Positions 16,808-63,151 of a DNA stretch of 64,000 bases are shown here, one piece after another (within the stretch, counting starts at the first letter, position 1; the number at the start of each line of letters is the position of its first letter). Location: assembly GCF_025449215.1 (NCBI RefSeq), contig NZ_CP104900.1:1054001-1118000 (forward strand), read 5' to 3'. The notes under the pieces were generated by a model. The model saw only the letters and a program-made list of their open reading frames with translations, did not search any database and had not been told where the DNA came from. This DNA is from Shewanella seohaensis. Lineage in GTDB: Bacteria > Pseudomonadota > Gammaproteobacteria > Enterobacterales > Shewanellaceae. A program made the translations under genes and the position numbers.

Positions 16808-17255
16808 CTTATTTAGCCTATCGCGCCCAGCATATCGTCAGTGTGCGGCTCGCCGCCAAGGTGGCAGCGCTTTAATCATCGGTATTTTTGTCATTACCGT
16901 GATGTTTTTATTGGCCGCCGCCTTAATCAATATAGTGGAAGATGCCGATACCGGATTAACTCAAGAAGTGTGGGGAACTCGCGCCTTAGCGGCGGCGAAC
17001 AGCGGTGCCGATGCGGCGCTGGCGCAATTATTCCCATTAAATGCCCCCGTTAATGCGACGGCGACATGTACCAGTGTTGCAAGCTCTTGGACGCCACCCA
17101 ATGTGGTGGGGTTTCATGCCTGTAGCGTGAGTTTAAGTTGTGCATCCTATTCCGTCGGTACTGTCACTCAGTTTCGGATAAATAGCAAAGCGGTATGTGA
17201 GAGTGGGGATACCCGCGTGAGCCGTCAAGTCGAGGTAGAAGCCCGTGGCAATTAA
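16797..17255 (+). CDS. mshP: MSHA biogenesis protein MshP (PilX-like)
   Basis: A 152-residue minor pilin-like protein. The basic leader ends in RRQGG and is followed by SALIIGIFVITVMFLLAAAL, then the PilX-type motif ALAAANSGADAALAQL. The C-terminal half has cysteines for one or two disulfides. It overlaps mshO and mshQ. Confidence 0.88.
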   Translation: MSPNLFSLSRPAYRQCAARRQGGSALIIGIFVITVMFLLAAALINIVEDADTGLTQEVWGTRALAAANSGADAALAQLFPLNAPVNATATCTSVASSWTPPNVVGFHACSVSLSCASYSVGTVTQFRINSKAVCESGDTRVSRQVEVEARGN

Positions 17256-20200
17256 CTGGTTATATCGAATTGTGCTCTCTAGCGCGCTGTTAGCTGTGTC
17301 AGGCGCAACCTATGCGTTTGATAATATCGACCAGAGCGTCATTTTTCCTAATGTTGCGCAGGGGCATCATGGGGATAACTCGAATGTGTGCCACCAGATC
17401 TCCTCTCCACAGCTTAAGATCAATAACAGCGGCATAATCAATGGTACGGGTGGCGACAGGCTGGATTATTGCTCTGTGAATTCTGGCAGCCTTCCTAATA
17501 CCACCTGTGATGATGGTGCGGGCGGTACTCGTCGATGTACTGTCGATGGAAGTGATATTCGCGGATTAAAGTTAACTGGGTCTAATGTTTTCCAATGGAG
17601 TAATGGTTACGGCGGTAGCATAGGTTATTGTACTAATGGTCAGCAGCTTACCTTAGGTACGGGGTACTATAATCAGTACTCTAATGTTTCCCTCTACTCT
17701 GCTTGTACTCTGACGTTATCGCCAAATTACAATGAGTACCGATTTGACTCTATTGCAGTCGGTGGTGGCGCTACCTTGGTACTGCCCGAAGGGGACTATT
17801 GGATCAATAGTTTTACCTTAAATCAAAATGCCAAGGTAGTTTTGCAGGGCAATGTGCGCATTTTCGTTCGGCAGGAATTTAACATTAATGGTGCCGCTTT
17901 CAACGAAGCGAATAACGCCAATGCGTTGATTATTGGCTACGATAATGTGCATTTAACTGGTTCATCGCTCGTTAATGCGTTGGTGTATAGTGATGACACG
18001 CTCACCCTAGATAATAGTTCCGTCATTAATGGTCGAGTGACGAGTCGCTACTTAGTGATCAACTCGAATGGTCAAATCAATGAAGGAGCGCCACCGCTTC
18101 AGTGTTTTAACGATAATTTCTCCCAGAGTGCCTTAAGTAACGACTGGGTAGTATCCCGTAGTAGTGGTACTTTTACTCCTGCCATTGTCAGTGGTCGTAT
18201 GCGCTTAACCGAGGCTAAATCCAATCAATCCACGGCCTCGACCTATCAAAGATTATTCCCCGCAGCCAATAACTTAGTCGAGATCCAATTTGACCACTAT
18301 GCCTATGGTGGCAATGGTGCTGACGGTATCGCGTTGGTGTTATCAGATGCTGCTATCACCCCCAGCCCGGCGCCTTTGGTGGGCCTTTAGGTTATGGATT
18401 TAAACCCGGTATCAATGGTTTTGCTGGCGGTTGGTTAGGTGTCGGGATCGATGAATTTGGTAACTTCTCCGGCGAAGGCGGTAGTTACAATATTGGCCAG
18501 CGCCGCCAGTCGGTTGCAGTACGTGGTTCTGGTGCTGGCACCTCGGGATACCGCTATTTGCGGGGCACCTGTAATAACGGTACCAGCAATACCAGTGGCA
18601 ACTGTTTATCACCCACGGTCGATGGCAACAATGTCTCGCCTGCGCACCGCTATAAAATCACTATCGACTCGCAGGTATCTGGTCAGTCGATGGTGAAGAT
18701 TGAGCGTAATACGGGGTCGGGATTTGTCACCTTAATCCCTGCTTTTAATGCTATCGCGCAAACGGGGCAAGCGGCGACGCCGAGTGATTTCTTGCTGTCG
18801 CTTACTGGGTCAACCGGTGGCTCGAATAACAACCATGAAATTGATAACGTTCAAATTTGTGCCTTGAGGTCTAATCCAATTGGCGCGCAAATCGATCATT
18901 TTGAGTTTGACCATACGGGGCAGGGATTAACCTGTAACCCAGAAACTGTGACGATTCGAGCCTGTGCCAACGCCAGTTGTAGTCAGCTTTTTACCGATCC
19001 TTTAGCGGCGACCTTGTTACCCGAATCCGCCTCCGAAGGCATATGGATTGGCGGCAATCAGGTGAGCTTTAGCAATGGCAGCACTCAGTTGCAGCTAAGA
19101 CGTAACACCCCTGGCGTTGTGACCTTGGGGGTGAAAGGTTCGAGCCCGACAACCAAACCTTTAAGTAAAACCCTATGCCGTATCGGGAATGGGGGCCTGA
19201 GTGAAAACAACTGTTCACTTACCTTCGCCGACAGTGGTTTTGTCTTCGATGTGCCCGATAAGCGTGCGAATCGTCCCGAGCAAGTGTTAGTTAAAGCGGT
19301 GAAAAAGTCCGATGTGACTCAGCAGTGTGTTCCAAGCTTTCAGAGCCAGACCAAGACATTGAATTTCTGGAGCAGTTATCACACTCCGAGTGCGCCTATC
19401 TCGCCAAAAGCCGTCACCATCAACAATACGGCCATTGGCACTTCAAGCGCCTCGCCTACGGCGCTGAATCTGGTGTTTGATACTAACGGACAGGCAAGTA
19501 TTTCAGTGAATTACCCCGATGCGGGTAAGTTACAACTCGATGCCCAATATATCGGCAGTGGCAACGAGCAAGGCCTGGTGATGACAGGCTCGGATCAATT
19601 TGTTAGTGTGCCAGCGGGGTTGTGCGTCAAACACGTGGACGCCAGCGCCAGTTGCCCAAGTGCGGATATGAGCTGTAATGCCTACCGTAAAGCGGGGCAG
19701 AATTTTGGTATGACGGTCCAAGCTATGGCTTGGGAAGACGACCGCGATACGGACTTTTGCTTGGGCAACTTACCTACGCCTAACTTTAGTGACCAAGCCA
19801 TGACGCTAACCAGTAAGGTCGTGGCGCCAAGTATTGCTAGCGGCGGCCATGATGGCGCATTAGGCGTGGCATCCTATAGTCATGCTATCCAAGCCAATAA
19901 CCTTAATAGCATCACCAACCAGACGATTAGCGAAGTGGGGGTATTCCAAATCGCGGCGCAGGCGAGTCCTAATTATCTCGGGGTGGCCAGCAGCTTAAAT
20001 ATTCCAATTGGCTATTCGGCCAATATTGGCCGCTTTGTGCCCGACAGATTTTTAGTGGGCGATATTTCTGTCGTGCCTGCCTGTGGCAGTTTTAGCTATA
20101 TGGATCAACCCTTTCCTATGTCGATGAGCCTCACAGCCTTAAATATCGGCGGCGATAGAACATACAACTATTTCCCGCCATTTTCCCTCGCGACCGCCAA

Positions 20201-20978
20201 ATTGGTGGGGGAGAACAATAACAATGGTATCGACTTACAGAGTCGCTTAAGTTCCTTACACATTAAGGCTGATAGTTGGGATCAAGGTGTGGCGACGGTC
20301 GATGGCACTTACCGAGCTTATTTAAACCGAGTGACTCCGAATGTGACGACGAATCTCTATCAAGATGGTCCCTTCGAGCTGCTCGATATTGGTGTGCAGT
20401 TGATGGATAACGATCCTCGGCCTAATGGACTTTTCAGCTATGTGGCATCGCCTGATATGAATGCAGCAACCACGGGTAATTGCACTAACTGTAATGCCAA
20501 GAAAATCTCCACACAGATCCTGCGCCACGGCAGGGTGGTGATGGACAATACCTATGGTCCAGAAACTGAAATCCTTAGGATGCCGACCCGAGCCGAATAT
20601 TGGAATGGGACTAATTGGGTATTAAATGGCGATGATAGCTGCACTATTGCTACCTATGGCCTTGGGTCGCAGGTGGATAATGCAGGGCTGGGTTATCACT
20701 TTGATCCGGATTTGACCACAGGGCAGAGCATTAATCGCTCCGGCGCTACATCCGCATTCCAAGCGGGGCAATTTGATTTGCTGTGGCGAGCACTCACCTC
20801 AAGTGGCAATTTATATCGCGGCCAAGTGACCGCGCCTTTAGATGTACCGACTTGGTTAGAATGGTATTGGAACTGGAATGGGGTATCTCCAACTAGCTTA
20901 TCCGATCCCCGTGCGAGTGCATTTTTTGGTCGTTACCGTGGTCATGACAGAATCATCTACTGGCGAGAGGTCAATTAA
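17245..20978 (+). CDS. mshQ: MSHA biogenesis protein MshQ, large exported protein (single-base frameshift)
   Basis: A very large secreted protein of about 1244 residues when repaired, the likely pilus-tip or surface adhesin-like component of the MSHA system. It has a signal peptide (residues ~1-22, ending SGATYA), an N-terminal polymer-forming/bactofilin-like beta segment, a lectin-like region, and a long C-terminal part with many cysteine pairs (the DUF6701-type region of MshQ). The GTG start at 17245 overlaps mshP by 11 bp. The frame ends at TAG 18390; adding one C to the 5-C run at 18359-18363 restores PQPGAFGGPLGYGF and joins the second part, so a base-calling error is likely. The tip role is inference. 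Confidence 0.85.
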
Positions 20979-22367
<1,389 letters not shown>

Positions 22368-24698: not shown

Positions 24699-26207
24699 GT
24701 GAATACCGGTCGCTTAAATCCGAATAAAGTTCAGCGCAAGATGGGTTCAGAATTACTGATTAACGTAACCCCATCTGAGGCACGTGTAGCTCTGGTTGAG
24801 CATGGCGTGCTGCAAGAAGTCCATATCGAGAGGCGCATGAAGCGCGGTCTAGTGGGCAATATTTACAAGGGCAAAATCAGCCGTGTGTTGCCCGGCATGC
24901 AAGCCGCCTTTGTGGATATTGGCTTAGATAAAGCCGCATTTTTACATGCCTCCGACATAGTGCCGCACACCGAATGCGTGGCCGATGTGGAAAAAGGCCA
25001 TTTTGTAGTCCGTGATATCGCCGAGTTGGTTCGCCAAGGGCAAGATATTATGGTGCAGGTGGTAAAAGATCCGCTCGGCACTAAAGGTGCGCGCCTGACC
25101 ACAGATATCACCCTGCCTTCCCGTTATCTGGTATTTATGCCCGGCTCAAGCCATGTTGGGGTGTCCCAGCGGATTGAGCAGGAAGAAGAGCGCAGTCGTC
25201 TTAAGAAAATCACTCTGCCTTTCGTCGATGAAGACGGCGGCTTTATTATCCGCACCGCCGCCGAAGGCGTAGGTGAAGATGAACTTGCTCAGGATGCGGC
25301 CTTCCTGCGTCGGGTATGGTCTAAGGTCTCCGAGCGTCGTCAGCGCCGTGGCGTGGCACTCTTGTATCAAGACCTCGCCTTGCCGGTGCGGATTGTGCGC
25401 GACTTTGTCGGAACCGAGCTCGATAGAATTCAAGTCGATTCGCGCCGCACTTTTGCCGAGCTGCAAGCCTTCGCCCAAGAGTTTATGCCGGAAATCGCCG
25501 ACAAGATTGAGCACTACTCAGGGCCGGCACCAATTTTCGATCTCTACGATGTGGAGAATGAAATCCAGCGCGCCCTGGGTCGCAAGGTCGAACTCAAATC
25601 GGGTGGCTATCTGATTATCGATCAGACCGAGGCCATGACCACGGTCGATATCAACACTGGTGCCTTTGTCGGCCACCGTAATCTTGAAGAAACCATCTTC
25701 AACACTAACCTCGAAGCGACCCAAGCGATTGCGCGGCAACTGCGGCTACGTAATCTCGGCGGCATCATCATTATCGACTTTATCGATATGCTGAGTGACG
25801 AGCATAAAACGCGGGTACTCAATAGCTTAAATAGCGCGCTCGCTAAAGACAGAGTCAAGACGAATGTCAGTGGCTTCTCGGGTCTGGGGTTAGTCGAAAT
25901 GACCCGTAAGCGCACCCGAGAAAGCTTGGAGCATGTGCTGTGCGGTGAATGCCCTGCCTGTCAGAGCACGGGTAGCATGAAGACGGTTGAAACGGTTTCC
26001 TACGAAATCTTCCGCGAAATCATCCGCTTGAATCGAGCCTATGACGCCGATGAGTTTTTGCTTTACTGCTCGCCCGCTGTGTATAACAGCTTAAGTGGCG
26101 ATGAAAGTCATCTGGTCGCTGAGCTTGAGGTCTACATAGGTAAACGCATTCGCCTGCAAAATGAGCCCATGTATTCCCAGCATAAATACGACGTGGTGAT
26201 GATGTAG
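24699..26207 (+). CDS. rng: Ribonuclease G
   Basis: An endoribonuclease (RNase E/G family) that matures the 16S rRNA 5' end. It has an S1 domain (RGLVGNIYKGKISRVLPGMQAAFVDIGLDKAAFLHASD), the catalytic aspartates in TTVDINTGAF and IIDFIDML, and the zinc-link CGECPAC. The GTG at 24699 has a strong GGGGTGAG ribosome-binding site and gives 502 residues; ATG 24741 would give 488, close to the E. coli length, so the true start is open. The stop overlaps the yhdP start. Confidence 0.95.
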   Translation: MNTGRLNPNKVQRKMGSELLINVTPSEARVALVEHGVLQEVHIERRMKRGLVGNIYKGKISRVLPGMQAAFVDIGLDKAAFLHASDIVPHTECVADVEKGHFVVRDIAELVRQGQDIMVQVVKDPLGTKGARLTTDITLPSRYLVFMPGSSHVGVSQRIEQEEERSRLKKITLPFVDEDGGFIIRTAAEGVGEDELAQDAAFLRRVWSKVSERRQRRGVALLYQDLALPVRIVRDFVGTELDRIQVDSRRTFAELQAFAQEFMPEIADKIEHYSGPAPIFDLYDVENEIQRALGRKVELKSGGYLIIDQTEAMTTVDINTGAFVGHRNLEETIFNTNLEATQAIARQLRLRNLGGIIIIDFIDMLSDEHKTRVLNSLNSALAKDRVKTNVSGFSGLGLVEMTRKRTRESLEHVLCGECPACQSTGSMKTVETVSYEIFREIIRLNRAYDADEFLLYCSPAVYNSLSGDESHLVAELEVYIGKRIRLQNEPMYSQHKYDVVMM

Positions 26208-29200
26208 TGGCAACGCTTTTTACTGCGAAAAAACTAAGCCGTTTTTGCTGGCAATTACTGGCGCTGATCTTAGTCTTGTTTGCCCTGACGGTAAGCTTGA
26301 TCCGCGGCTTATTGCCCCAAGTCGACGGTGTGCGTCAGCAGTTAGTTGAGTATGTAAAAAGCGAATATCAAATTGATGTGCAAGTCGGTGAGTTATCCGC
26401 CCAGTGGCAAGCCTTTGGCCCGGCCGTGACGGTTGATAATCTGGTGATCCCGCCGCAGGAAAAACTCCCCGTCACTGTGCTGGTCAAGAACGTTCAAATT
26501 AAATTGGATTTTTGGCAATCGCTACTGACGACCAGCCCACGCATCGAAGATGTGAATTTCGATGGTGTTCATATTGCCCTCGATATCGACAAATTATCGG
26601 GTAATAAGGCGCAGGGCGCGGCCAATCAAACTTCGCAAACCGATTGGTTATATAAATTACTCCTAAAGCAGCTTGAACGTTTCTCGCTGACGGATGCCTC
26701 GGTGCAGCTGTTGAGCTTGCAGCATGAATATCGACCCATCCACATTCGCCACCTTAATTGGCGTAATAGTGGTGAGCGCCACCGCGGCGCGGGGGAAATT
26801 TACCTCGATAATAATGCCATGGTAAATGAGTCGCTGGGTTTGCAACTCGATCTTCAGGGGACGCAACTGCGCCTGATACGTTGAAGGGGCAAATCTATCT
26901 TGCGGCCCAGTCCTTAGATTTGGGCGAATGGGCATCGCGTCAACCTAATCCCTATGATCCAAGCAAGAAGTTACCCTTAGAAGGGGTGGTCAATCTCAAG
27001 GCGTGGTTTGATTTTGCCCATCGTAGCATCAGCGCGGGCTTAGTGCAGTTTGAACCTAGTTGGCTGCAATGGTCGATGGAAGGTGAGCCGCAAAAGTTTG
27101 AAATCCAGTCCGGCAGCATTAGCTGGCTACCTAAGGAAACAGGCTGGGAGATCCGCAGTGCGGATTTGGATTTTGTGACCAATGGCGAGCATTGGCCTGA
27201 CCTTAAGCTTGCGGCCAAGCAGCAAGACGATGCTTTTTATGCCTATGTGAGTCGCTTGGATTTACCGACCCTATTCCCACTCTTGCCATTATTTCCGGGC
27301 GTCGATTTAGCCGTCCTTAAGCAATGGTTTCAGCTGGCACCCGAAGGCAGTATTGGGCCGATTCGCCTCTATCAAAGCGCCAAGCAACCCTTGCTGGCCA
27401 GTACGTATATCAAGCAATTGCGTTGGCAGAAAGCCGAAGGCATACCTAACACCAATCCTCTAGATTTAGCATTGCAATGGCAGAATGACAGCTTAGTGTT
27501 TTCGCTGCCTGAACAGACCTATACCCTCGATTTTGGCGATCAATTTTCAGCCCCTCTAGTGCTGCATGGCGCGGCGTTAACGGGCGCCTTCGATACCCAA
27601 AGGGCCACCTTATCCGTGCCTGAGGTTCAGCTCGAAAACGAGGATATTGGTGTTTCCGCCGCCCTAAAACTGGATTTTAGCGCCGAAGCCAGCATGTCAC
27701 TCGCCGCTAATGTGGCCGTTAAAAATGCCGCCAATGCGGACAGATACTTCCCCGTCAAAGCCATGGGCGAGGCGTTGGTGGAGTATTTGGATGGCGCTAT
27801 CAAGGCAGGCCAGAGCCAAAATGCGCAGGTATTATGGCAGGGCGCCTTAGCGCATTTTCCCTTTGAGGATAATAGCGGGGTCTTCCAAGCGGCCTTTACC
27901 TTAGATAACGCCGAGTATCAATTTCAACCCGATTGGCCAGCGGTGACTGAGCTTTCTCTCGATGCCTTATTTGAAAATGCCCGTATGGATATCTGGGTTA
28001 ACCAAGGCAAATTGATGAATGTGGTGGCCGATGGTGCCCATGTGTTTATCCCCGAATTAGGCGAGCATTCGCTGTTAAAAATTCAGGCCGATCTTGCGAC
28101 CAATGGTAGCGCCGCCACCCAAGTGTTGCAGGCATCACCGCTCGCCGATACTGTGGGCAAGACCTTAAGCGTTGTGCAAGTGCAGGGCGCGGTGACGGGG
28201 AATTTAGATATCAGCATTCCCTTGTACGAGGGTGAGGCCGAGGATATCCGTGGGCAAATTGCCTTTGAAAATACGCCCGTATTTATTGCCCAGCCCGGGT
28301 TACAGCTCAAGGCTGTGACGGGCACAGTGCAGTTTGCGAATGAGATTGTTGAAGGCAAAGGCATTAAATCCCGCTTATTTGAGCAGCCCTTCGAGTTCAG
28401 TTTTGCCACTAAACCCGAAGGCAAAGACTTTGCGCTCAATGTAGATATGAAGAGCCGTTGGGATCTCAGCCGATTACCACAAGAGCTGCAAAATCCCTTG
28501 AGTGAATTTTACCAAGGTAAAGTCGCTTGGGGTGGCAACTTGAATATGGTGTTCGACGATCAAGGCTATCAAATTCAGGCCAATGTCGGCTCCGATCTCG
28601 TCGGCGCGACTCTGACATTGCCAGGTGCCTTTGCCAAACCCGAAGATGAGCCTAGACCCTTAATGGCGGTGTTTTCTGGCGATCAGCAAACGGCGACGCT
28701 AAGCGTAAAACTGGATAAACAGGCCGAATTTATCGGTGGCTTCGAGGCCGAAAAGGGCACTCAATTCAGCTATTTTGACTTGTTATTGGGCCGACTCTTC
28801 GATGCGGCCGAGGTGCCCAATACCGAGCTTGGGCATATCAAGATTGATGTGACCAGCGGCAAGCTTGCCAATTGGCTGCCGGTAATTAATGCCTTTGTCG
28901 GCACAGACAACAAGCCTCCCCGCGCAGGCATTTTAGTCGAAGAGGCGAGCCACTCCGCCTTGTTTCCTTCGGTGGTTGGGATAGACGCCAATATCGGCAA
29001 GTTTGATTTATTAGGACAAGGGCTGACCGAGCTCAGATTAAATGCTAAGCCGAACGAACATGGTTGGCGCTTCGATGCTAAGGCCAGCGAGTTTGAAGGC
29101 TGGGTCGATTTTTATCCCAACTGGATGACCCAAGGATTAAAAGTCACCGCTAGTAAGTTTTATTTCTCCCCGAAGTAAAACCCGAGGGGGAAGGCGATTT

Positions 29201-30458
29201 CGCCGCGGACGAGGTGCTGACCAATTTACCGCCGGTTGCCGTGAATGTGGAAGATTTTCGTTTCTTCGATAAACCCTTTGGCAAGCTGGTGCTGCAGGCG
29301 AGCCCACAAGCTTCGGGCTATCGAATTCAAACCCTGTCATTGACGACGCCTGAAGTGTCTTTACAGGGTAACGGCATTTGGCAGCAGCAGAATGGTCAAA
29401 ACCAGACAGAATTAACGGTGAGTTTAAACGCCAGCCAGTTTAATTATTTGAGTCAGCAATTGGGCATAGACCCGGGTGTGAATGAGGCGCCTTTGAAGGT
29501 GAATGCCGAGCTAGCTTGGCAGGGGGCGCCCTATGCGTTTTCCCTCGATACCTTAAACGGCAAGGTGAAGTTTGAGCTGGGTAAGGGGCACTTATCCCAA
29601 GTGAGCGATAAGGGCGCGCGGATTTTCTCCCTGTTCAGCCTCGACTCCTTGGTGCGTAAGTTATCCTTAGATTTCAGTGATGTGTTCGGCCAGGGCATGT
29701 ACTTCAATTCCTTTAGCGGTAATCTTCAAATTGATAATGGTGTGGTTAAAACCACGGATACCGAAATGGATGCAATTGCGGGCAATATGAAGGTGCGCGG
29801 CTATACGGATCTGACCAGCGAAAGCTTAAACTACGATATCCGATTTGTGCCGCAATTGGCGTCGAGTGTGCCGACCGTGGTGCTGCTCAGTACCAGTGCG
29901 TGGACGTTGGGGCTTGGTGCATTTGCACTGACCAAAGTGCTCGAACCTGTGATTGAGGTGATTTCGGAAATCCGCTTCCGAGTGACAGGTACTATGTCCG
30001 ACCCTGTGGTGGAAGAACTCGAACGTAAGAGCAAAGAGATTGAGATCCCCGAGTCGATTCTGCCTATGGTGGGAGGCGAATTGCCAGTGCCTACCGAGGG
30101 CGCTGAGCCTAAGGCTGATGCGGTGCCCATCAAGAATAGCGCTCCAACTAAAACAGAGGCTACACCGCCCGTCGAGCCTGAAAAAAACAATGAGCAGCCT
30201 GCGCCAGATGCTGATAAACCTAAAGTGGAACCAGTAAAAGCGGTTGAGGAAGAAGCATCGCCGCAAGCGCCGATTCTCCCCAAGGTCGAACCTGCAGAGC
30301 CGCCCAAAGCCGAACCCGAACAGCCTAAGCCTTTGAGCACTAAGGTAGTATTTTCGATAAACACAATTCAAGGAGATAGTCATGCGCATCAGCCTGTTGC
30401 AATGTCAGAGCAGTCGCGACGTCAGCGCGAATCTGTTGTTTATCGAATCGCAGCTTGA
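26207..30458 (+). CDS. yhdP: YhdP, AsmA-like inter-membrane lipid transport protein (two frameshifts)
   Basis: A very large envelope protein, about 1417 residues when repaired, anchored by one N-terminal helix (about residues 10-35) with a long beta-rich periplasmic groove. YhdP, with TamB and YdbH, moves phospholipids to the outer membrane in E. coli. Two single-base gaps split it: near 26877-26883 (repair gives LIRLKGQIYLAAQSL) and near 29162-29170 (repair gives KFYFLPEVKPEGEG). The C-terminus is a P/E/K-rich tail and runs 77 bp into the next gene; a further indel near 30355 would end it earlier (CGATAA). The GTG start overlaps the rng stop. Confidence 0.9.
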
Positions 30459-31272: not shown

Positions 31273-31355
31273 ATGAAATAGACTCACAGCGAATTTAAGT
31301 TATTTTAAAAATGAGTGAGTTGCCAATTTTAGCCAAGCTTTCAGAGAGAACCGCG

Positions 31356-32803
31356 ATGCCTTTTTTAGCACAAGTAGAGCAAAGTTTATTAAAGGGTGGC
31401 TTAGCCCTCGATGGGTTACAGAGTTATTTAAACACCATACATCAACATAAAGTCGATTTTTCCGATCTCTATTTCCAAGGTAGTCGCCACGAATCTTGGG
31501 TGCTCGAAGATGGCATTATTAAAGATGGTAGCTTCCATATCGAACGCGGCGTCGGTGTGCGTGCCATCAGCGGCGAGAAAACCGGTTTTGCCTATGCCGA
31601 TGATATTACGCCAGCGGCTTTAAGCGCTGCGGCCGAGGCGGCGCGTGGTATTGCTGGGGCGGGTGAGCAGGCCAAGGTGCAGGCTTTCAAACGTCGACAA
31701 GCCTTGGCGCTGTACGATAGTCTCGACCCTATCGCCGCCATGGAAGAAGTGAAAAAATCAATCTACTGAAAGAGGCCGATGCCTATATTCGTAGCCTCGA
31801 CAGCCGCATTATCCAAGTGGTCATTAGCCTAGCGGGTGTGCACGAAGAAATTCTGGTTGCCGCCAGTGACGGTACTTTGGCCGCCGATATTCGCCCGCTA
31901 GTACGCTTTAATTGCAGCGTTATTTTAGAAGAAAATGGCAAGCGTGAACGTGGCAGCGCCGGTGGCGGTGGTCGTCACGATTACAGCGTGTTTATGGTGA
32001 CGGATGAAACCGGTTTACCTATGTGCTTTGCCTTCGCCCGTGAAGCGGTTCGTCAGGCGCAAGTCAACCTCAATGCCATCGATGCGCCAGCCGGAGAGAT
32101 GCCTGTGGTGCTCGGTAATGGTTGGCCGGGCGTGTTATTGCACGAGGCCGTGGGTCATGGCCTAGAAGGTGACTTTAACCGCAAGGGCAGCAGCGCCTTT
32201 AGTGGCATGGTCGGCGAACAAGTAGCTTCGAAACTGGTGACTGTGGTGGACGATGGCACGCTTGCGAATCGCCGTGGTTCACTGAGCATCGACGATGAAG
32301 GCGTACAAACCCAGAGAACCGTGTTAATCGAAGACGGTATTCTTAAAGGCTACATACAAGATAAATTAAATGCTCGCCTGATGGGCGTGGCGCCGACGGG
32401 GAATGGCCGCCGTGAATCCTATGCGCATCTGCCTATGCCTCGCATGACCAACACTTATATGACGGCGGGCGAGTCTGATCCGAGCGAGATCATCAAGTCG
32501 GTGAAGAAGGGCATTTATGCGCCTAACTTTGGCGGCGGTCAGGTGGATATCACCTCGGGCAAGTTCGTGTTCTCCGCTTCTGAAGCCTATCTGATTGAAA
32601 ATGGTGAAGTGACTCAAGCGATTAAGGGCGCTACCCTGATTGGTAATGGCCCAGAGGCCATGAGTCAGATCTCCATGGTGGGTAACGACATGGCCCTAGA
32701 TAAGGGCGTTGGTGTGTGTGGTAAGGATGGTCAAAGCGTACCTGTGGGTGTCGGTCAACCGACCCTCAAACTTGACCGTTTAACCGTTGGAGGTACGGCA
32801 TAA
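31356..32803 (+). CDS. tldD: TldD metalloprotease subunit (single-base frameshift)
   Basis: One half of the TldD/TldE (PmbA) metalloprotease, about 482 residues when repaired, as in E. coli (481). The zinc motif HExxxH is present as [14 protein letters not shown]. The frame stops at 31769; adding one A to the 6-A run at 31752-31757 restores [22 protein letters not shown] 31356, with AGAGAGAA upstream, fits the family length better than the in-frame ATG at 31311. Its partner pmbA lies at 43465. Confidence 0.93.
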
Positions 32804-38678: not shown

Positions 38679-38767
38679 CCGGTAAACATCCGGAAATGAT
38701 ATGAGGTTCGTTTGAACCTACTTTACTGAGGACAATTCAATGGGGCTGTTGTTTACCGGATGTTCGG
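38679..38767 (+). promoter_or_regulatory. Long-range inverted repeat enclosing a hairpin, upstream of puuP
   Basis: CCGGTAAAC (38679-38687) is complementary to GTTTACCGG (38751-38759), and the adjacent ATCCGG can also pair with CCGGAT of the right arm, so two alternative pairings exist. The hairpin AGGTTC/GAACCT lies in the loop. It ends about 50 nt before the ribosome-binding site and is suggestive of a leader switch. Confidence 0.5.
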
Positions 38768-38828
38768 TAGTTGCCGTAAATCAATCTGTTGCGTTTGCAA
38801 TTCCACCTGCTGCAAAAGGAGGTTGGAT

Positions 38829-40159
38829 ATGAGCCAACAAAATCCTGGCTTAAAGCAAAGCCTTAGTCTGTGGCAAGTGGTTGTGATGGGATTAGCCTAT
38901 CTCACGCCAATGGCCGTGTTTGACACCTTTGGCATTGTCTCCGAGATCACCTCAGGCCATGTGGCCACCTCTTACCTGCTCGCGTTAGCGGGGATCCTGT
39001 TTACCGCCTTTAGCTACGGTCACTTAGTGCGTAAATATCCCTATGCGGGCTCGGCCTATACCTATGCGCAAAAACCTTTAGCCCGAATGTCGGCTTTATG
39101 GTGGGCTGGTCATCGCTGCTCGATTATATGTTTATGCCGATGATCAATATGTTGCTGGCAAAGATTTACCTCACGGCCATGTTCCCTAACGTCGAGCCGT
39201 GGATTTTTATCTTTGGTTTAGTCGCTGTGATGACGGTATTAAACCTGAGGGGCATAGATTTAGTGGCGAATTTTAATGGCGTTATCGTATTCGCCCAGAT
39301 AGCCATTATCTTAGTGTTTATCGGTCTAATGGCCCACAGTTTGTCCCTTGGCGAAGGTGAAGGTGTGATTGCCAGTGTGCGTCCATTCTATTCCGAAGAG
39401 ATAACCCTTGCGCCGCTGTTTACTGGCGCGACTATTCTGTGTTTCTCCTTCTTAGGTTTCGATGGCTTAAGCTCTTTGAGTGAAGAAACCAAGGACGCTA
39501 AGCGAGTCATCCCTCGCGCTATCGTGCTAACTGCTTTGATTGGCGGGGTGATTTTTGTCAGCGTGTCCTATTTCTTGCAGCTGTTTTTCCCAGATATTTC
39601 TCGCTTCCAGCAGTTAGATGCTGTGCTGCCTGAGATTGCCCTGTATGTGGGCGGTAATTTATTCCAGTCAGTGGTGCTGGTGGCAACCACCATTGCGGTG
39701 TTGGCCTCGGGCATGGCCGCCCATGCGGGGGTGGCACGTATTCTCTACGTGATGGGTCGCGACAATATGCTGCCCAATAAAGGCTTTGGCTATATTCACC
39801 CCAAATGGCGCACGCCGGCATTTAACGTGATTTTGGTGGGGTTACTGGCGCTTTCGGCGGTGTCCTTCGATCTCGAAATGGCATTGGCGCTGGTCAACTT
39901 CGGGGCGCTGGTGGCTTTTACCTTTGTGAACTTGTCGGTAATAGTGCAGTTTTATATCAAAGAGAAACGTAACCAATCCTTGAAAGACCACTTTCAGTAC
40001 TTCGTCTTACCCTTGTGCGGTGCGGCGACGATTGGCGTGCTGTGGCTTAACCTTGAACCTCAGTCCCTAGAGCTTGGCTTGATTTGGGCAGCAGTTGGGG
40101 TCTTGTACTTGGCACTGCGAAGCCTGCGTTTACGCAAGGCGGTAGAGTTACAGAATTAA
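38829..40159 (+). CDS. puuP: PuuP-like putrescine/amino-acid permease (single-base frameshift)
   Basis: An APC-superfamily permease of about 443 residues when repaired, very similar along its length to E. coli PuuP, the putrescine importer: [64 protein letters not shown]. About 12 membrane helices are expected. Translation from ATG 38829 ends at 39143; adding one G to CGG at 39091-39093 gives [16 protein letters not shown]. The ribosome-binding site AAAGGAGG is excellent. Substrate assignment is by similarity only. Confidence 0.88.
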
Positions 40160-52558: not shown

Positions 52559-52668
52559 CCTTGGGTTGAAGGTGTGACAACTGGGCGGTTAGCTTTGACT
52601 GCTCTGATTTACACCCATATCCCATCTTTGCCTGTCACAATTTTCCTGTGAGTAACTGTTTATCATTG

Positions 52669-52870
52669 CGGCCTTACGGCCGAGGTGAATCAAAGTCGTG
52701 GGGCTTCACCCCACACCCGACCAAGGAGGACTGCTCGTCCTATCCTCCTTGGATTCTCCAAGACGCCCCTAACGGAGTTGAAAACCCCTTGTGCTCATTG
52801 CCAAATTTGCTATCGCTTCCGAAGGATGCGTCCTTGCACCTGCGAAAGCTAGCTTGCCATCCATGGCAAG
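52669..52870. repeat. Hairpin-rich intergenic element
   Basis: Four perfect inverted repeats occur in 200 bp: CGGCC/GGCCG (52669-52682), GTGGGG/CCCCAC (52698-52714), CCAAGGAGGA/TCCTCCTTGG (52721-52752) and CTTGCCAT/ATGGCAAG (52853-52870). This pattern looks like an interspersed intergenic element or a structured RNA; identical copies elsewhere could not be tested. No protein is supported. Confidence 0.7.
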
Positions 52871-52871
52871 A

Positions 52872-53089
52872 CTCACGCAATTTGTCTATTCGCCCTGCGG
52901 CAACTCCGAGGGGATGGTGAACTCCTGTCGCTTCTGTGTTGGCTGTTAATCCCGAAAGAGTTATGCCTGTTCTATCTTTTCTCACGCGATTTTCTTCAAC
53001 GTCCTTCAGCAACTTCGCAGGGGAGGGGGAACTTCTGTTGCCTTGGTGTTAGCTGTTAGTCCTAAAAATTTGTGCTCGTCCCATCTTTC
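52872..53089. repeat. Diverged tandem duplication of about 109 bp
   Basis: Copy A (52872-52980) and copy B (52981-53089) align end to end. Both begin CTCACGC and share matching blocks such as GCAACT(C/T)CG, GTGTT(G/A)GCTGTTA and CTATCTTT/CCATCTTT. They have many substitutions but no large gap. Confidence 0.75.
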
Positions 53090-53455: not shown

Positions 53456-54217
53456 TCAGGTATATGCATTAATCATTTTGAACATATCTTCTTGGCTGCC
53501 TTCTATTTTTAAATTTAAAATTTCATCTAGACGCTGAAGTTGTCTTGTTCGATTCACAGAGAATAAATCTAATTTATCAAGTAGATACATAATCAGTGCC
53601 GTTAGCACGGCAGTAATAACAGACGACATAATAATTGACCAAGGTTCACCCAAACCTAAACTATTAAGCCAGGTCTCTATTCCAATGCTGGCGAAAATAG
53701 TCAACGAACTTGCAACTAGTTTTAATACTGCATCACCCTTTTCAGCGAAACTTTTATTCTTATCCACCAAAATCGGAGCAATCTGAAGAAGAATCTTAAA
53801 TCCTTCTTTTACCATCCTGGCAACCTGTTTAAATATCCCAACAAAACAATTCAAAATACCTTCAAGCAGCATTGCTAAAAAGTTTCTGAAGAAATTTAAT
53901 AATCCATCTTTTAGTAGCACTTCGACTTGCTGTAGGATATAAGTTTTCATTCGATCCAATCTGATTTTCAGTGCAGACTTAAAGCTGTTACTTTTTACAC
54001 CTTTCTCTATACCATTAAGAAAGCAATCCCTAAGTTCGTAAAACAACGGCTTCATTATGAAGACTATCACATCACCAATCGACTGTTCTGCCGCAGCATC
54101 TTTTGCATCTTTGACAAGAGTTTTCTGAACTTTTTTGTCGCTTGTAATATTTTTTATTACTTTTGAATTTGTGGCGGAATCTAGTTTTTTTTGTGTTTCG
54201 GCCATTTTGCTAACCAT
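53456..54217 (-). CDS. Membrane protein of unknown function (third gene of TerB/HNH cassette)
   Basis: A 253-residue protein not recognised as a known family. The first ~60 residues are charged and Lys-rich. Amphipathic helices at about 95-160 (LLNFFRNFLAMLLEGILNCFVGIFKQVARM, GFKILLQIAPILV) precede one or two membrane helices at about 168-215 (LVASSLTIFASIGIETWL, SIIMSSVITAVLTALIMYLLDKL). The 5' end overlaps the HNH-like gene by 37 bp, so it is co-transcribed. The codon use and base composition are AT-rich compared with the housekeeping genes around it. A pore or membrane effector is one guess. Confidence 0.7.
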   Translation of the reverse strand: MVSKMAETQKKLDSATNSKVIKNITSDKKVQKTLVKDAKDAAAEQSIGDVIVFIMKPLFYELRDCFLNGIEKGVKSNSFKSALKIRLDRMKTYILQQVEVLLKDGLLNFFRNFLAMLLEGILNCFVGIFKQVARMVKEGFKILLQIAPILVDKNKSFAEKGDAVLKLVASSLTIFASIGIETWLNSLGLGEPWSIIMSSVITAVLTALIMYLLDKLDLFSVNRTRQLQRLDEILNLKIEGSQEDMFKMINAYT

Positions 54218-55125
54218 TTTTTTCGCGTTTCAATATCTTTCTCTGAAAGGTTTTTCCTCCTTCCTTGTTTATCTATAACATATCCTTGATTAATTTCTTG
54301 TTCGAGTTCTGTGCTGGACTTGTCAAACTTCCCAGTTTTTGCTCCCCTGTTATTTTGCATGCTGGTTACTAAGAGATTATCTTCGTCATTTAAAATATCT
54401 TTTATATCAGTTACATTCAGCGCTTTATTACTTTTAAGTTGATTGCAGACCTCTGCGCAGGAAATGATATGTTCAACTTCACCTGTTTGTGTGGATTCCC
54501 CTGCACTTTTTGCATGCTTCTTTGATTGATACACCGTAGACCCATCATATCCATCTGTCGCCCGCGGGTTGCCATTAAAATGAATCTCTTTGACCTTATT
54601 CATCTTCGTACCATCACGCATATTAATGGTCTGGTTTCCGCGCGTCATATCTCCATTGCTATAACTTGACTGTTCACCAAATCGCTTTATGTTCTCACGC
54701 TCATTTAACGACTCAGTGTAACTATCCAGTGCAATGCTTTTCGAGGCGGATTCATAAGTAAATGATTTACACTCATTGTATAATCGTGATGCTGTAATAC
54801 CGTGTGTTGTGCCAATTTTAAATGCTCTCATAGTGCCATCAAACAGGCTTAAAAATACCGGCTCAAGAATGTTATCAATAGCGCTGCCTGAGCTAACAGC
54901 TTCAATTAAACTGATAGCTTCTTTCCTAGTTACATCAAGTTTAAATTCTTTAATACGTGTCGCATAAACTGCATTAACATCATTTTTTGCGATGAAAGTT
55001 AAGTCAACAATTTCATCAGAGTATTTCTGCAGTACTTCACCAGTCGCTAGTGGTTTAAGCCTCTGTGTACTTTGAAAGTTCTTTATTCTTTCTAATCTTA
55101 ACTTGTGCTCTTTAGCTGAACTCAT
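54181..55125 (-). CDS. HNH-like nuclease candidate (second gene of TerB/HNH cassette)
   Basis: A 314-residue protein not recognised as a named family. The C-terminal third has an HNH-like pattern: EVEHIISCAEV (E218-H219), then DEDNLLVTSMQNNRGAKTGKF with N250, N259 and K263. The N-terminal half is helical and of unknown role. ATG 55125 is chosen over an in-frame 55146 because AGGAGG lies directly upstream of it. Nuclease function is inferred from the motif alone and a metal-binding final His is not obvious. Confidence 0.65.
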   Translation of the reverse strand: MSSAKEHKLRLERIKNFQSTQRLKPLATGEVLQKYSDEIVDLTFIAKNDVNAVYATRIKEFKLDVTRKEAISLIEAVSSGSAIDNILEPVFLSLFDGTMRAFKIGTTHGITASRLYNECKSFTYESASKSIALDSYTESLNERENIKRFGEQSSYSNGDMTRGNQTINMRDGTKMNKVKEIHFNGNPRATDGYDGSTVYQSKKHAKSAGESTQTGEVEHIISCAEVCNQLKSNKALNVTDIKDILNDEDNLLVTSMQNNRGAKTGKFDKSSTELEQEINQGYVIDKQGRRKNLSEKDIETRKKWLAKWPKHKKN

Positions 55126-55135
55126 TTCGGGCCTC

Positions 55136-55768
55136 CTATGCCACAAGGCTATTCCATCTCTCTAGAAACTCTTTTTCGTCTTGAGTTACACTCCCATCTG
55201 CATGAGCTACAAGTTCAACTACTGTACTGAATATTCTTAAATAATGTTCTGTATCAAGCTCATACTTTCTAATCATTGCCCACACAGTGCTTAAATTTGG
55301 AGGCGAATTTTTCATATCCATAATTTGTTTTTTTGTTGATTCTGAAAGCATTTCGCTTGTACCGATTCCAGAGACAAGATAATCCAACTCATCAATTTCA
55401 GTATCACAAATGTGACCGTCCGCATAAGCACAACAGATACCCAGCGCAAATGCGGTCAGGATAAACTGCTCTCTTTTGGCTATATCTGCCATCATTTCTG
55501 CAAGCTGTACTTGTAGCTTCTCCATTTCAATGGCTTGTTCAGCTTTTGCTATTTGGTAGTTTTCATTTCGAGCTTCGTCATCCTTGTTTGCTAATACCGC
55601 TCCCGCTGCTGCTCCAGCAACACCGGCACCAGCAGCCAAAGCACCTGCGCCACTTAACGAACCTAATAATGTAGCCGCGCCTAAAACAGAACCTCCACCG
55701 GTAAAAGGGGCGGCAGCTATTGCTCCAACACCAATTGCTGCACCCGCAAAAATTTTCCAGTAACTCAT
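55136..55768 (-). CDS. TerB-like protein with Gly/Ala-rich N-terminus (first gene of cassette)
   Basis: A 210-residue protein. Residues 1-60 are a Gly/Ala-rich hydrophobic region (about two membrane-like helices), 65-100 are a coiled coil, and 100-210 are a TerB-like helical domain with the paired acidic motifs YADGHICDTEIDEL and AHADGSVTQDEKEFL. TerB domains occur in tellurite-resistance and phage-defence-associated operons. The ribosome-binding site AAGGGA precedes the start. It is the promoter-proximal gene of the cassette. Confidence 0.75.
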   Translation of the reverse strand: MSYWKIFAGAAIGVGAIAAAPFTGGGSVLGAATLLGSLSGAGALAAGAGVAGAAAGAVLANKDDEARNENYQIAKAEQAIEMEKLQVQLAEMMADIAKREQFILTAFALGICCAYADGHICDTEIDELDYLVSGIGTSEMLSESTKKQIMDMKNSPPNLSTVWAMIRKYELDTEHYLRIFSTVVELVAHADGSVTQDEKEFLERWNSLVA

Positions 55769-55966
55769 ATCGTTGTTCCCTTACAAAATGAAGATGATGG
55801 TCAGTAAATTTAAGACCATTAACAGTTTTAAAACACTATAGTAGTCAAATTATGGCGTATTGATCTTTCGTGAGTGTTTTTAGTGGCATTCTTAGTTGCT
55901 ATGGTTTATTAAAAAAAACAGATAATTACACTCGATTATACCTAATAAAATGTTAACTCATCTTCG

Positions 55967-56122
55967 ATGGCAACGGCTACAAAAAACTTTATCAAAGGAA
56001 GTTATCAAATTGATCCAATTAACGATCTAATCCCAGTCTGCTCAAACTGTCACTCTATTATCCATCAAGGAAAAGAGCCATTAAGTATCGAGGAGTTAAA
56101 AGCATTGGAGACTAGAAATTAG
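55967..56122 (+). pseudogene. Remnant of an HNH endonuclease (C-terminal end only)
   Basis: A 51-codon frame encodes YQIDPINDLIPVCSNCHSIIHQ followed by GKEPLSIEELKALE. This is the usual C-terminal end of McrA-like HNH endonucleases (DLIPVCxNCHxxIH). The rest of the nuclease domain, including the HHI segment, is missing upstream, so this is a fragment. It lies beside the TerB/HNH cassette on the other strand. Confidence 0.8.
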
Positions 56123-56415: not shown

Positions 56416-57518
56416 TTAAACAATCAGATCATACTCTTCACGCAGGATCTTAATAATATCTGCCTTAGGATTGGCTGGCAGCGGAATCGCCGCGCCAGTC
56501 ACCTTCTCGGCGATGCCGGTGTAAGTGCGTGACACATCCATCATCGCCTCTAATGGCAGGGCGTTATCGCGGGCGAGGGCTTCGCGTTCTGGCATTCTGT
56601 CTTTGTTGAGCAGAATGTCCGGATCGGGGAAGTGGTTCAGCAGGAACTGACGGAAGCCTTCCTTAGAGTTTTCAAGGATTTTACCATCGCGGTAGGCGGC
56701 GCCGTCCCAAATGCGAGATGAATCGGGGTGCCCACTTCATCCATATAGATCAGTTTTGAGTTGCCGTTTTTATCGGTCACATAACCAAACTCGAACTTGG
56801 TATCCACAAATACTTGGTCAAGGTCGGCCAGTGCCTTTGAGATCACCTTAAAGCCATCTTTTAACAGCTTCTCGTACAGGTCGATATCTTCTACCTTTTC
56901 AAAACCAAAGGCTTGGTAGTTGGCTTCGATATCGCTGCGGCTGATGTTAACGTCATCCTGCGCGGGCACACCGGGGATCCCAGTTAAAATACCTTTGGTG
57001 GAAGGGGTGATCAGCAAATCTGGCAGCTTTTGATCTTTCTCTAAGCCTTCTGGCAGTGTGATACCGCAGAATACGCGCTCGCCCTTAGAGTAGGCGCGCC
57101 ACATTGAGCCAGTAATATATTGGCGGCAAATGGCTTCGACTTTAATCGGACGGGCTTTTTGGACTATCCAAACGAAGGGATGCGGAATATCTAAAATGTG
57201 GCTGTCAGCTAAACCATTTTCGGCAAATAACTTAAACCAATGATTAGAAATGGCATTTAATGCCGCGCCTTTACCTGGGATGCCTTTTAATCCGCCTTCA
57301 CCGTGGAAGATGCAGTCGAAGGCGGAGATGCGATCGCTAATCACCATAATGGCAAGCGGCGTATCTTCGGGCACATTGTAGCCCTTGGTTTTGATTAAAC
57401 GGCGGCTGTCGGCGTCGGTTAGCCAGTAAACGCTACGTACCTTGCCGCTATGGACTGGGCTGTCGGTGCGGATGGGTAAATCGTTGTTTACGGCTAATAC
57501 GGAATCAGCAAGACTCAT
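56416..57518 (-). CDS. purC: SAICAR synthetase PurC (single-base frameshift)
   Basis: The purine biosynthesis enzyme that joins CAIR and aspartate, about 367 residues when repaired, the long form seen in Shewanella and relatives. Segments include [44 protein letters not shown] and DTKFEFGYV. The main frame ends at 56637 with a wrong C-terminus; adding one base to the GGGG run at 56725-56728 gives [18 protein letters not shown] and an end at TAA 56416. Because purC is needed for purine synthesis, this is probably an error in the sequence. Confidence 0.93.
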
Positions 57519-61639: not shown

Positions 61640-62242
61640 ATGACGAAAAGATATGTGATGGTGCACGATGAGAACAAGTGCATCGGCTGCCAAGCCTGTA
61701 ACGTGGCCTGCCGCAGTGAAAACGGTGTCCCCGAGGGCGTGACTCGCTTACAAGTGCGCGTAGAGGGCCCCTTCGGCGAGATGCCACACCTGCACTTTAA
61801 GTACCACAGGGTATCGTGCCAGCAGTGTGAAGATGCGCCTTGTGTGAAGGTATGCCCAACGGGCGCGGCCTATGTGGGCGAGGATGGGATTGTCTCCATC
61901 CATGGCGATAAGTGTGTGGGTTGTATGTACTGCGTGGCGGCGTGTCCCTACAAGGTACGTTTTATGAACCCAGAAACCAAAGTGGCTGACAAGTGTAACT
62001 TCTGTAAGGACACGCGTTTGGCCCGTGGTGAAGAGCCTGCCTGTGTGACTGTGTGTCCGACCGATGCTTTAGTCTTTGGCGATGCCAACGATCCACTGAG
62101 TGAGGTGGCTATGCTACTCAACACTAAGATCACTTACCAAGATAAGACCCATTTAGGCACTCAGCCTAGGGTATATCGCGTTCCTACCAAAAGAGGGGGA
62201 TTTGATTATGAACAATACTTGGGGCGATATGGCGCAATATGA
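61640..62242 (+). CDS. psrB: Iron-sulfur electron transfer subunit PsrB
   Basis: A 200-residue four-cluster ferredoxin of the DmsB/PsrB type. Cysteine motifs are CIGCQACNVAC, CQQCEDAPCVKVCPTGA, CVGCMYCVAACPY and the C-terminal CNFCKDTRLARGEEPACVTVCPTDA. It carries electrons from PsrC to PsrA. The ribosome-binding site GGAGG precedes ATG 61640. The 3' end overlaps psrC by 35 bp. Confidence 0.93.
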   Translation: MTKRYVMVHDENKCIGCQACNVACRSENGVPEGVTRLQVRVEGPFGEMPHLHFKYHRVSCQQCEDAPCVKVCPTGAAYVGEDGIVSIHGDKCVGCMYCVAACPYKVRFMNPETKVADKCNFCKDTRLARGEEPACVTVCPTDALVFGDANDPLSEVAMLLNTKITYQDKTHLGTQPRVYRVPTKRGGFDYEQYLGRYGAI

Positions 62243-63151
62243 TCCCGTCACTTGGCATTGGATCATCGCCGTGTATCTGTTTATGGCGGGTTTATCCGCC
62301 GGAAGTTTGCTGATTGGCATTGGCCTGCGTTGGTTTAATAAGGAGCAAGCGCAGGGGGAGACGAGTATTCTCAAGGCCGCGGCGATTATTGGTCCAGTGG
62401 CCATTTGTCTAGGCTTGGCATGTTTAGTGTTTGATTTAACGAAGCCTTTCCACTTCTGGCTGATTTTAATCAACTATAACTTCCAGTCCGTAATGGCGAT
62501 TGGGGTGTTAGCACTACTGGCTTACTCCCCTTGGCATTTGCCTACGCGATTCTTGTGTTGCGTGATGAACTGCCAAAGTGGGGCTTAGGTTTCCTCGTGC
62601 CTATCGCTAAGCTGCTGATGCCCTTTAGAAAGTTGATTGAAGTACTGCTGTTTATCCTCGCCATTGGCGTGGGGGCTTACACTGGCTTCTTAATTTCGGC
62701 TATGAATGCCTATCCGATGTTGAACACTGCGGTATTGCCAGCGCTGTTTTTAGTCTCTGGTTTATCGGCGGGCGCGGCGGCTAATGCGGTGCTGGCGCTG
62801 GTGATGTTCAAGACCGATAGCCACGACAAGACCTTAGCCAAAATGCATGGCTTAGAGCTGCCAGTGATGGCAATCGAAATCATGTTCCTGTTTATGTTGT
62901 TCTGCGCCTTGTACTTTAAGGGCGGAGCGGCGGCTGCGGCGCTGGCATCACTCACCTCTGGCGTGTGGGCGAGCGTATTTTGGATTGGCGTGGTCGGGAT
63001 TGGTTTTGGTATTCCGCTGTTGTTTATGCTGCTTCCCACCGCGACTCGCCACACTAAGGGCGCGATGATCATGGTGGCCTGCGCCAGCTTAACCGGCGTG
63101 TTAGCACTGAGACACTTTATTGTGTATGCGGGACAAAGCTATCTAAGTTAG
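62208..63151 (+). CDS. psrC: NrfD-family quinol dehydrogenase membrane subunit PsrC (single-base frameshift)
   Basis: A polytopic membrane protein of about 314 residues when repaired, with eight or so helices, taking electrons from menaquinol. Conserved segments include VTWHWIIAVYLFMAGLSAGSLLIG and LPALFLVSGLSAGAAAN. The first frame ends at 62588 after an out-of-frame tail; adding one C to CCCC at 62527-62530 gives LLAYSPLAFAYAILVLRDELP. The ribosome-binding site GAGGGGG precedes ATG 62208, inside psrB. Confidence 0.9.

Follow-up and report, generated by a model that had tools for sequence, protein, structure and literature searches.

A split gene for a predicted HNH-membrane protein and its TerB-like partner in Shewanella seohaensis

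What does the AT-rich cassette beside purC in Shewanella seohaensis encode, and how many genes does it hold? The cassette lies in a stretch of 64,000 nucleotides (contig NZ_CP104900.1, positions 1,054,001 to 1,118,000), referred to here as the window, in which an original prediction had described a three-gene phage-defence or conflict module composed of a TerB-like protein, an HNH-like protein and a membrane protein. Three overlapping minus-strand open reading frames (ORFs) are present where that prediction placed them (Table 1), between purC and a methyltransferase ORF as it had stated, and their GC content of 0.34-0.45, against about 0.46-0.54 in the flanks (500-base windows), agrees with the AT-rich overlapping operon it proposed. 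The number of genes did not hold, as the HNH and membrane ORFs form one gene in most relatives. Homologues and profile matches indicate that the cassette consists of two genes: gene A, encoding the TerB-like protein, and gene B, encoding a predicted HNH nuclease fused to a membrane domain and split in the assembly.

The two-gene structure follows from two observations, namely that most homologues of gene B are single chains and that one profile spans both frames in order. Of the 52 proteins listed in a search with the HNH ORF, which include that of the window itself, 44 are single chains of 530-562 aa; in the first 20 homologues aligned, the second half corresponds to the membrane ORF of the window, and the closest homologue, P0002, is intact at 95% identity. 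The eight shorter entries are P0001 (the window's own), P0014, P0032 and P0048-P0052, and the other half of P0014 is apparently P0057, each lying on a contig of length 16,439. The PADLOC profile PDC-M40B (PDLC04630) covers both ORFs: its positions 95-213 match the HNH ORF (E 0.0013) and its positions 223-457 match the membrane ORF (E 2.2e-7). Single-chain homologues and this ordered match together rule out three separate genes. Programmed frameshifting or slippage at the junction, where the two ORFs overlap by 37 nt, was unsupported, as its A tracts are not conserved in loci L017-L020.

The split in gene B is probably an assembly indel, because purC is also broken and many genes of the window are frame-changed relative to the syntenic stretch of genome G015. 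The window copy of purC (56419-57518) is interrupted where its frame shifts, near 56.72-56.73 kb; its ORF is open for only 293 aa, and the remainder is found in another frame. Among 33 other genomes with a purC match, 31 have an open frame of 369-451 aa, the match ending at window residue 266-269, the two exceptions being G023, which has a split of its own, and the distant G093. The window is about 93-95% identical to G015 over long matches, and nine of 44 G015 genes of at least 150 aa were flagged as frame-changed in it, seven clearly and one of these twice; for the flags at 40.2-42.7 and 47.3-48.1 kb the matches overlap, and these flags may be due to something else. G015 has no cassette in this stretch, so gene B itself lies outside this count. 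The reverse test flagged three of 49 genes, two with stops inside the G015 match plus the gene at 47-48 kb, none being a clean frame change. Overall, the assembly seems to carry many indels. That the split is instead real in the strain, as a decaying pseudogene or as two working halves, appears quite improbable: the ORF overlap, the ATG that opens the second ORF and the second apparently broken homologue (P0014/P0057) speak for it, whereas the excess of flags in the window over the reverse test, the broken purC and the intact P0002 speak against it. Were the break real, this copy would be dead or would yield two separate halves. Besides purC, six more genes that are intact in G015 are frame-changed in the window, one of them twice (17245-20975, 21319-22364, 26207-30455, 31299-32800, 38760-40156 and 62202-63148).

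Rejoined, gene B is strongly supported, by sequence and by modelling, as a predicted HNH nuclease, probably of the GmrSD_C/HNH_4 type. All 44 diverse relatives share H219, N250 and N259 (P0002 numbering) and have D or E at position 218, and the catalytic and metal residues expected of an HNH or His-Me finger nuclease (H, N, N/H) are present. The predicted model appears to contain the beta-beta-alpha fold of these enzymes, and the top structural matches of the domain are His-Me-finger nucleases, including Vibrio endonuclease I and Cas9 HNH domains; neither the gene A nor the gene B model gave a Foldseek match at E 0.001 or better. The invariant residues and the structural matches bear out strongly the nuclease-like motif noticed originally. 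Through its HNH region, the gene B family profile also picks up stand-alone GmrSD_C proteins, a His-Me finger likeness, but gene B stays under the Pfam cut-off and the stand-alone proteins tested have no membrane domain. For GmrSD_C (PF07510), the window HNH ORF gave no match, and the best score among the relatives scanned was 14.3 bits against a cut-off of 23. Gene B had no useful sequence match to solved structures, and searches of Pfam, NCBIfam, PHROGs and PADLOC returned no convincing non-nuclease family for the middle protein.

Membrane character, the third element of the original prediction, was judged by Kyte-Doolittle hydropathy, which agrees with it: the C-terminal part of gene B has at least two stretches of at least 1.2 in 33 of 33 relatives and one stretch of at least 1.6 in 31 of 33. 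Gene A begins with a Gly/Ala-rich hydrophobic hairpin, followed by a helix or coiled coil, and its C-terminal half resembles TerB/DUF533. Pfam lends this resemblance borderline support, with 29.7 bits against a cut-off of 29.6 for DUF533 (PF04391) and 21.6 bits, under the cut-off of 24.4, for TerB (PF05099), and the gene A profile matches the solved TerB structure 2jxu at E 0.0047. Gene A differs from TerB/DUF533 proteins in its fused glycine-rich hairpin and its nuclease partner. A weak match to PADLOC LeoBC (E 0.0019; 1.3e-5 for the L017 copy) covers just the end of that profile. The motif PFTGG occurs in all 53 sequences of alignment A3 (52 chosen from 94 gene A matches, plus the window) and in just two of the ten gene A-type partners found upstream of gene B (L017 and L019), so that the shared feature is the hairpin and not the motif. 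Residues 1-67 of the gene A model have a pLDDT under 50.

The two genes are found together in other genomes, as the original prediction would lead one to expect. The gene A profile (E 1e-10) was found in four of 394 order-level genomes, the window's own included, and gene B lies directly downstream in all four. In the window, the TAG stop of gene A overlaps an AGGAGG and the ATG of gene B comes after it, which is the pattern expected for a coupled gene pair. PDC-M40B (E 0.001) was found in 27 of the 394 genomes and in none of 14 control genomes; the window's own genome is missing from the 27.

Elsewhere, gene B combines with differing partners. The 44 B proteins collected, without that of the window, represent 43 distinct genes, as L017 and L079 name the same locus; L090, truncated by a contig end, and the weakest PDC-M40B genome (G221) were excluded from the loci read. 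The partner proportions are no census, as part of the loci were found through PDC-M40B itself, and the partner clusters are single-linkage, in which shared coiled coils may have brought unlike proteins together. A gene of type A lies directly upstream of gene B in ten loci (L017, L018, L019, L020, L021, L022, L025, L059, L060 and L024, the last assigned at 70.6 bits); L017, from Vibrio renipiscarius, and L019, from Buttiauxella agrestis, hold intact pairs. In 14 loci, a coiled-coil gene precedes gene B, and the gene before that falls in a single cluster of 128-134 aa proteins, the member tested being Pfam TerB (26.7 bits, cut-off 24.4). Ten loci carry after gene B a member of a cluster whose tested protein is CxxCxxCC, and in one of this group, L066, the glycine-rich partner matches PDC-M09A at 1.5e-19. 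Four loci (L023, L057, L058 and L089) have a gene of the PDC-M40C cluster after B, two of these genes having been tested, and L057 additionally carries a SUKH gene; L026, L061 and L063 lie outside all these types. Several arrangements were seen in passing: L066:3984-6963 and similar loci encode a PDC-M09A-like glycine-rich protein, gene B and, overlapping its end, a CxxCxxCC protein of 93 aa; genome G354 (L061) has two B genes about 9 kb apart; and Ion_trans channel genes directly follow B at L060:8662-9738 and L078:5451-6287 by Pfam and at L075:8358-9146 by cluster. Phage origin was rejected, as the cassette had no match in phage records and none in IMG/VR by pattern scan, and a DNA search of E. 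coli genomes found no copies.

These partners bear on whether gene B could be a nuclease toxin, acting on its own cell or between bacteria, that the upstream gene neutralises as antitoxin or immunity protein, phages being irrelevant. SUKH (SMI1/KNR4) proteins are known to confer immunity to nuclease toxins, and the SUKH gene beside B in L057, the small upstream partner and the coupled genes would all suit such an arrangement. SUKH was identified in that one locus only, however, and the upstream partners are of several unrelated kinds, some being TerB plus coiled-coil proteins spread over three genes. Searches of B against Pfam, NCBIfam, PHROGs and PADLOC matched no domain of a secretion type, and the sites and neighbours resemble defence cargo. 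We therefore regard the toxin explanation as unlikely.

The nearest named system is PDC-M40, itself a candidate in PADLOC, in which A is a SUKH protein, B an HNH-membrane protein and C a coiled coil. Gene B is homologous to its B component, PDLC04630 matching both window ORFs in order, and bridging members join both B groups in one alignment with the same H-N-N. The other components differ: neither the SUKH component (PDLC04629) nor the C component (PDLC04631-04634) matched any of the three window proteins at E 10, and the partner in the window is instead the hairpin-TerB protein. On these matches, the window pair is a TerB-partnered relative of candidate PDC-M40, with two of the three PDC-M40 parts absent. 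The original statement that no described system was recognised therefore needs qualifying, as PDC-M40 has a related nuclease-membrane protein, although its partners differ. The B protein of L020 has no PADLOC match at all, and PDC-M09A, which matches the glycine-rich partner of L066, does not match gene A itself. A literature search, with most subscription papers and all preprints outside its scope, did not find the name PDC-M40, nor, among work on TerB, HNH and PADLOC defence, a paper on the cassette.

Part of the neighbourhoods of gene B in other genomes contain defence-type genes. By cluster, nine of 43 loci have a WYL-type regulator two or three genes upstream; all five tested match PADLOC WYL, and Pfam WYL or WCX was found in four of four tested. 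WYL domains have been reported to regulate defence systems and to occur in fusions with HNH, TerB and other domains (PMC4012209). On plasmids, four of the seven regions read, out of 17 records, are near defence-type or TerY-P-like genes (a Sau3AI enzyme in Paraclostridium, type III-B CRISPR genes in Paenibacillus, a DUF262 gene in Raoultella and TerY-P-like genes in Cronobacter), with no such neighbour listed in the other three; these neighbour counts are raw, uncontrolled ones. The E. coli plasmid of L023, which bears a related B gene, has in its flank (L023:1-118) the cut end of an annotated mcr-1 gene.

The Cronobacter region, where the copy stands beside TerD, VWA, TerY-C, PP2C and kinase genes, raises the further possibility of a Ter-type stress response, in which TerB would sense metal or oxidative stress and B would process host DNA or alter the membrane, defence playing no part. 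Modules of this type have been described as a switch that senses metals and is linked to the processing of DNA (PMC11090510). The TerB/DUF533 similarity of gene A, with its 2jxu match, fits a stress role. Such genes were found in one of the seven plasmid regions, however, no ter operon genes adjoin the window pair among the ORFs listed, and the same B also occurs in listed loci with partners lacking a TerB gene, which makes a stress response without defence distinctly unlikely.

The site occupied by the cassette looks like a small cargo hotspot. In three of three relatives examined (G015, G002 and G006), the position between purC and the methyltransferase gene holds other cargo (Table 1), which, by family matches, is partly defence-like. 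The GmrSD_N gene of G006 matches PADLOC NsnA (1.6e-37) and PD-T4-2_A (6.3e-24), and PD-T4-2 has been shown to protect against T4 (PMC9519451). Repeats had also been noted beside the cassette, and they are there: repeat-like sequence at about 52.66-53.09 kb (52657-53088) lies 3' of gene B, before the methyltransferase ORF, and recurs in pieces at the matching sites of all three relatives. The nuclease remnant that was noted as well is a plus-strand frame at 55949-56122 that does read like the tail of an HNH protein; this label comes from its motif, and we take it as presumptive. The frame is possibly older cargo of the same site.

Table 1. Coordinates of the features of the cassette (window numbering) and of the cargo at the matching site in relatives.
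Feature	Position	Strand	Length	Basis or remark
ORF 1	53456-54217	-	253 aa	
ORF 2	54181-55146	-	321 aa	314 aa from ATG at 55125, as in P0001
ORF 3	55136-55768	-	210 aa	
Gene A: Gly/Ala-rich membrane hairpin, coiled coil, TerB/DUF533-like domain	55136..55768	-	210 aa	
Gene B, first part: helical N-terminus and predicted HNH nuclease domain	54181..55125	-		homologues, profile, structural matches
Gene B, second part: C-terminal membrane domain, other frame in assembly	53456..54217	-		profile, homologues, hydropathy
Frame-change stretch of gene B, two A tracts	54185..54223	-		tracts not conserved in L017-L020
Gene A stop codon overlapping AGGAGG ahead of gene B start	55132..55138	-		sequence
Site cargo in G015: TIGR04141/DUF6119 gene	L111:12482-14041			no PADLOC match
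Site cargo in G002: Exo_endo_phos_3 gene and 157-aa gene	L115:10564-11952			no PADLOC match
Site cargo in G006: weakly SIR2-like gene and GmrSD_N gene	L116:11655-13729			SIR2 21.5 bits, cut-off 24.5

Gene pairing, the HNH residues and predicted fold, hydropathy, partner exchange and a cargo site shared with other defence-like genes form the basis on which we lean, somewhat beyond even chances, towards a two-gene anti-phage or anti-plasmid module in which a membrane-tethered HNH effector works with a TerB-type sensor. The defence role put forward originally is supported by association only, and this purpose, like the DNA substrate, the regulatory role of A and the trigger, is inferred. Gene A would be an inner-membrane protein whose glycine-rich hairpin lies within the membrane and which also has a coiled-coil stalk and, in the cytosol, a TerB-like domain serving as sensor or switch, while the HNH nuclease of gene B would be held at the membrane by its own C-terminal domain. 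At rest, A would keep B silent or unclustered; a membrane disturbance during phage DNA entry or replication would change A, and B would then nick or cut DNA near the membrane, either incoming DNA or, as abortive infection, that of the host. The nearest worked-out analogue among the systems considered is Zorya II, in which ZorAB recruits the HNH nickase ZorE to the membrane upon infection (PMC11890865). The idea of an HNH enzyme acting at the membrane is common to both, but B has its own membrane domain, so that the tether would be covalent, and no PADLOC match to ZorA, ZorB or ZorE was obtained for the three window proteins at E 10.

More tentatively, and with rather less than even confidence, the B family may represent a widespread undescribed immune class, in which one HNH-membrane effector cuts DNA on entry and the sensors are exchanged: the glycine hairpin-TerB protein of the window, a stand-alone TerB gene with coiled-coil proteins, a PDC-M09A-like glycine-rich protein with a CxxCxxCC gene, or SUKH with a coiled coil as in PDC-M40. 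The locus also illustrates that frame breaks in an assembly can mimic a three-gene operon. If the proposal is true, PDC-M40, PDC-M09 and unlisted cassettes would be one modular family with a membrane-tethered nuclease, the cutter would be placed where phage DNA enters, and TerB domains would gain a testable role as sensors.
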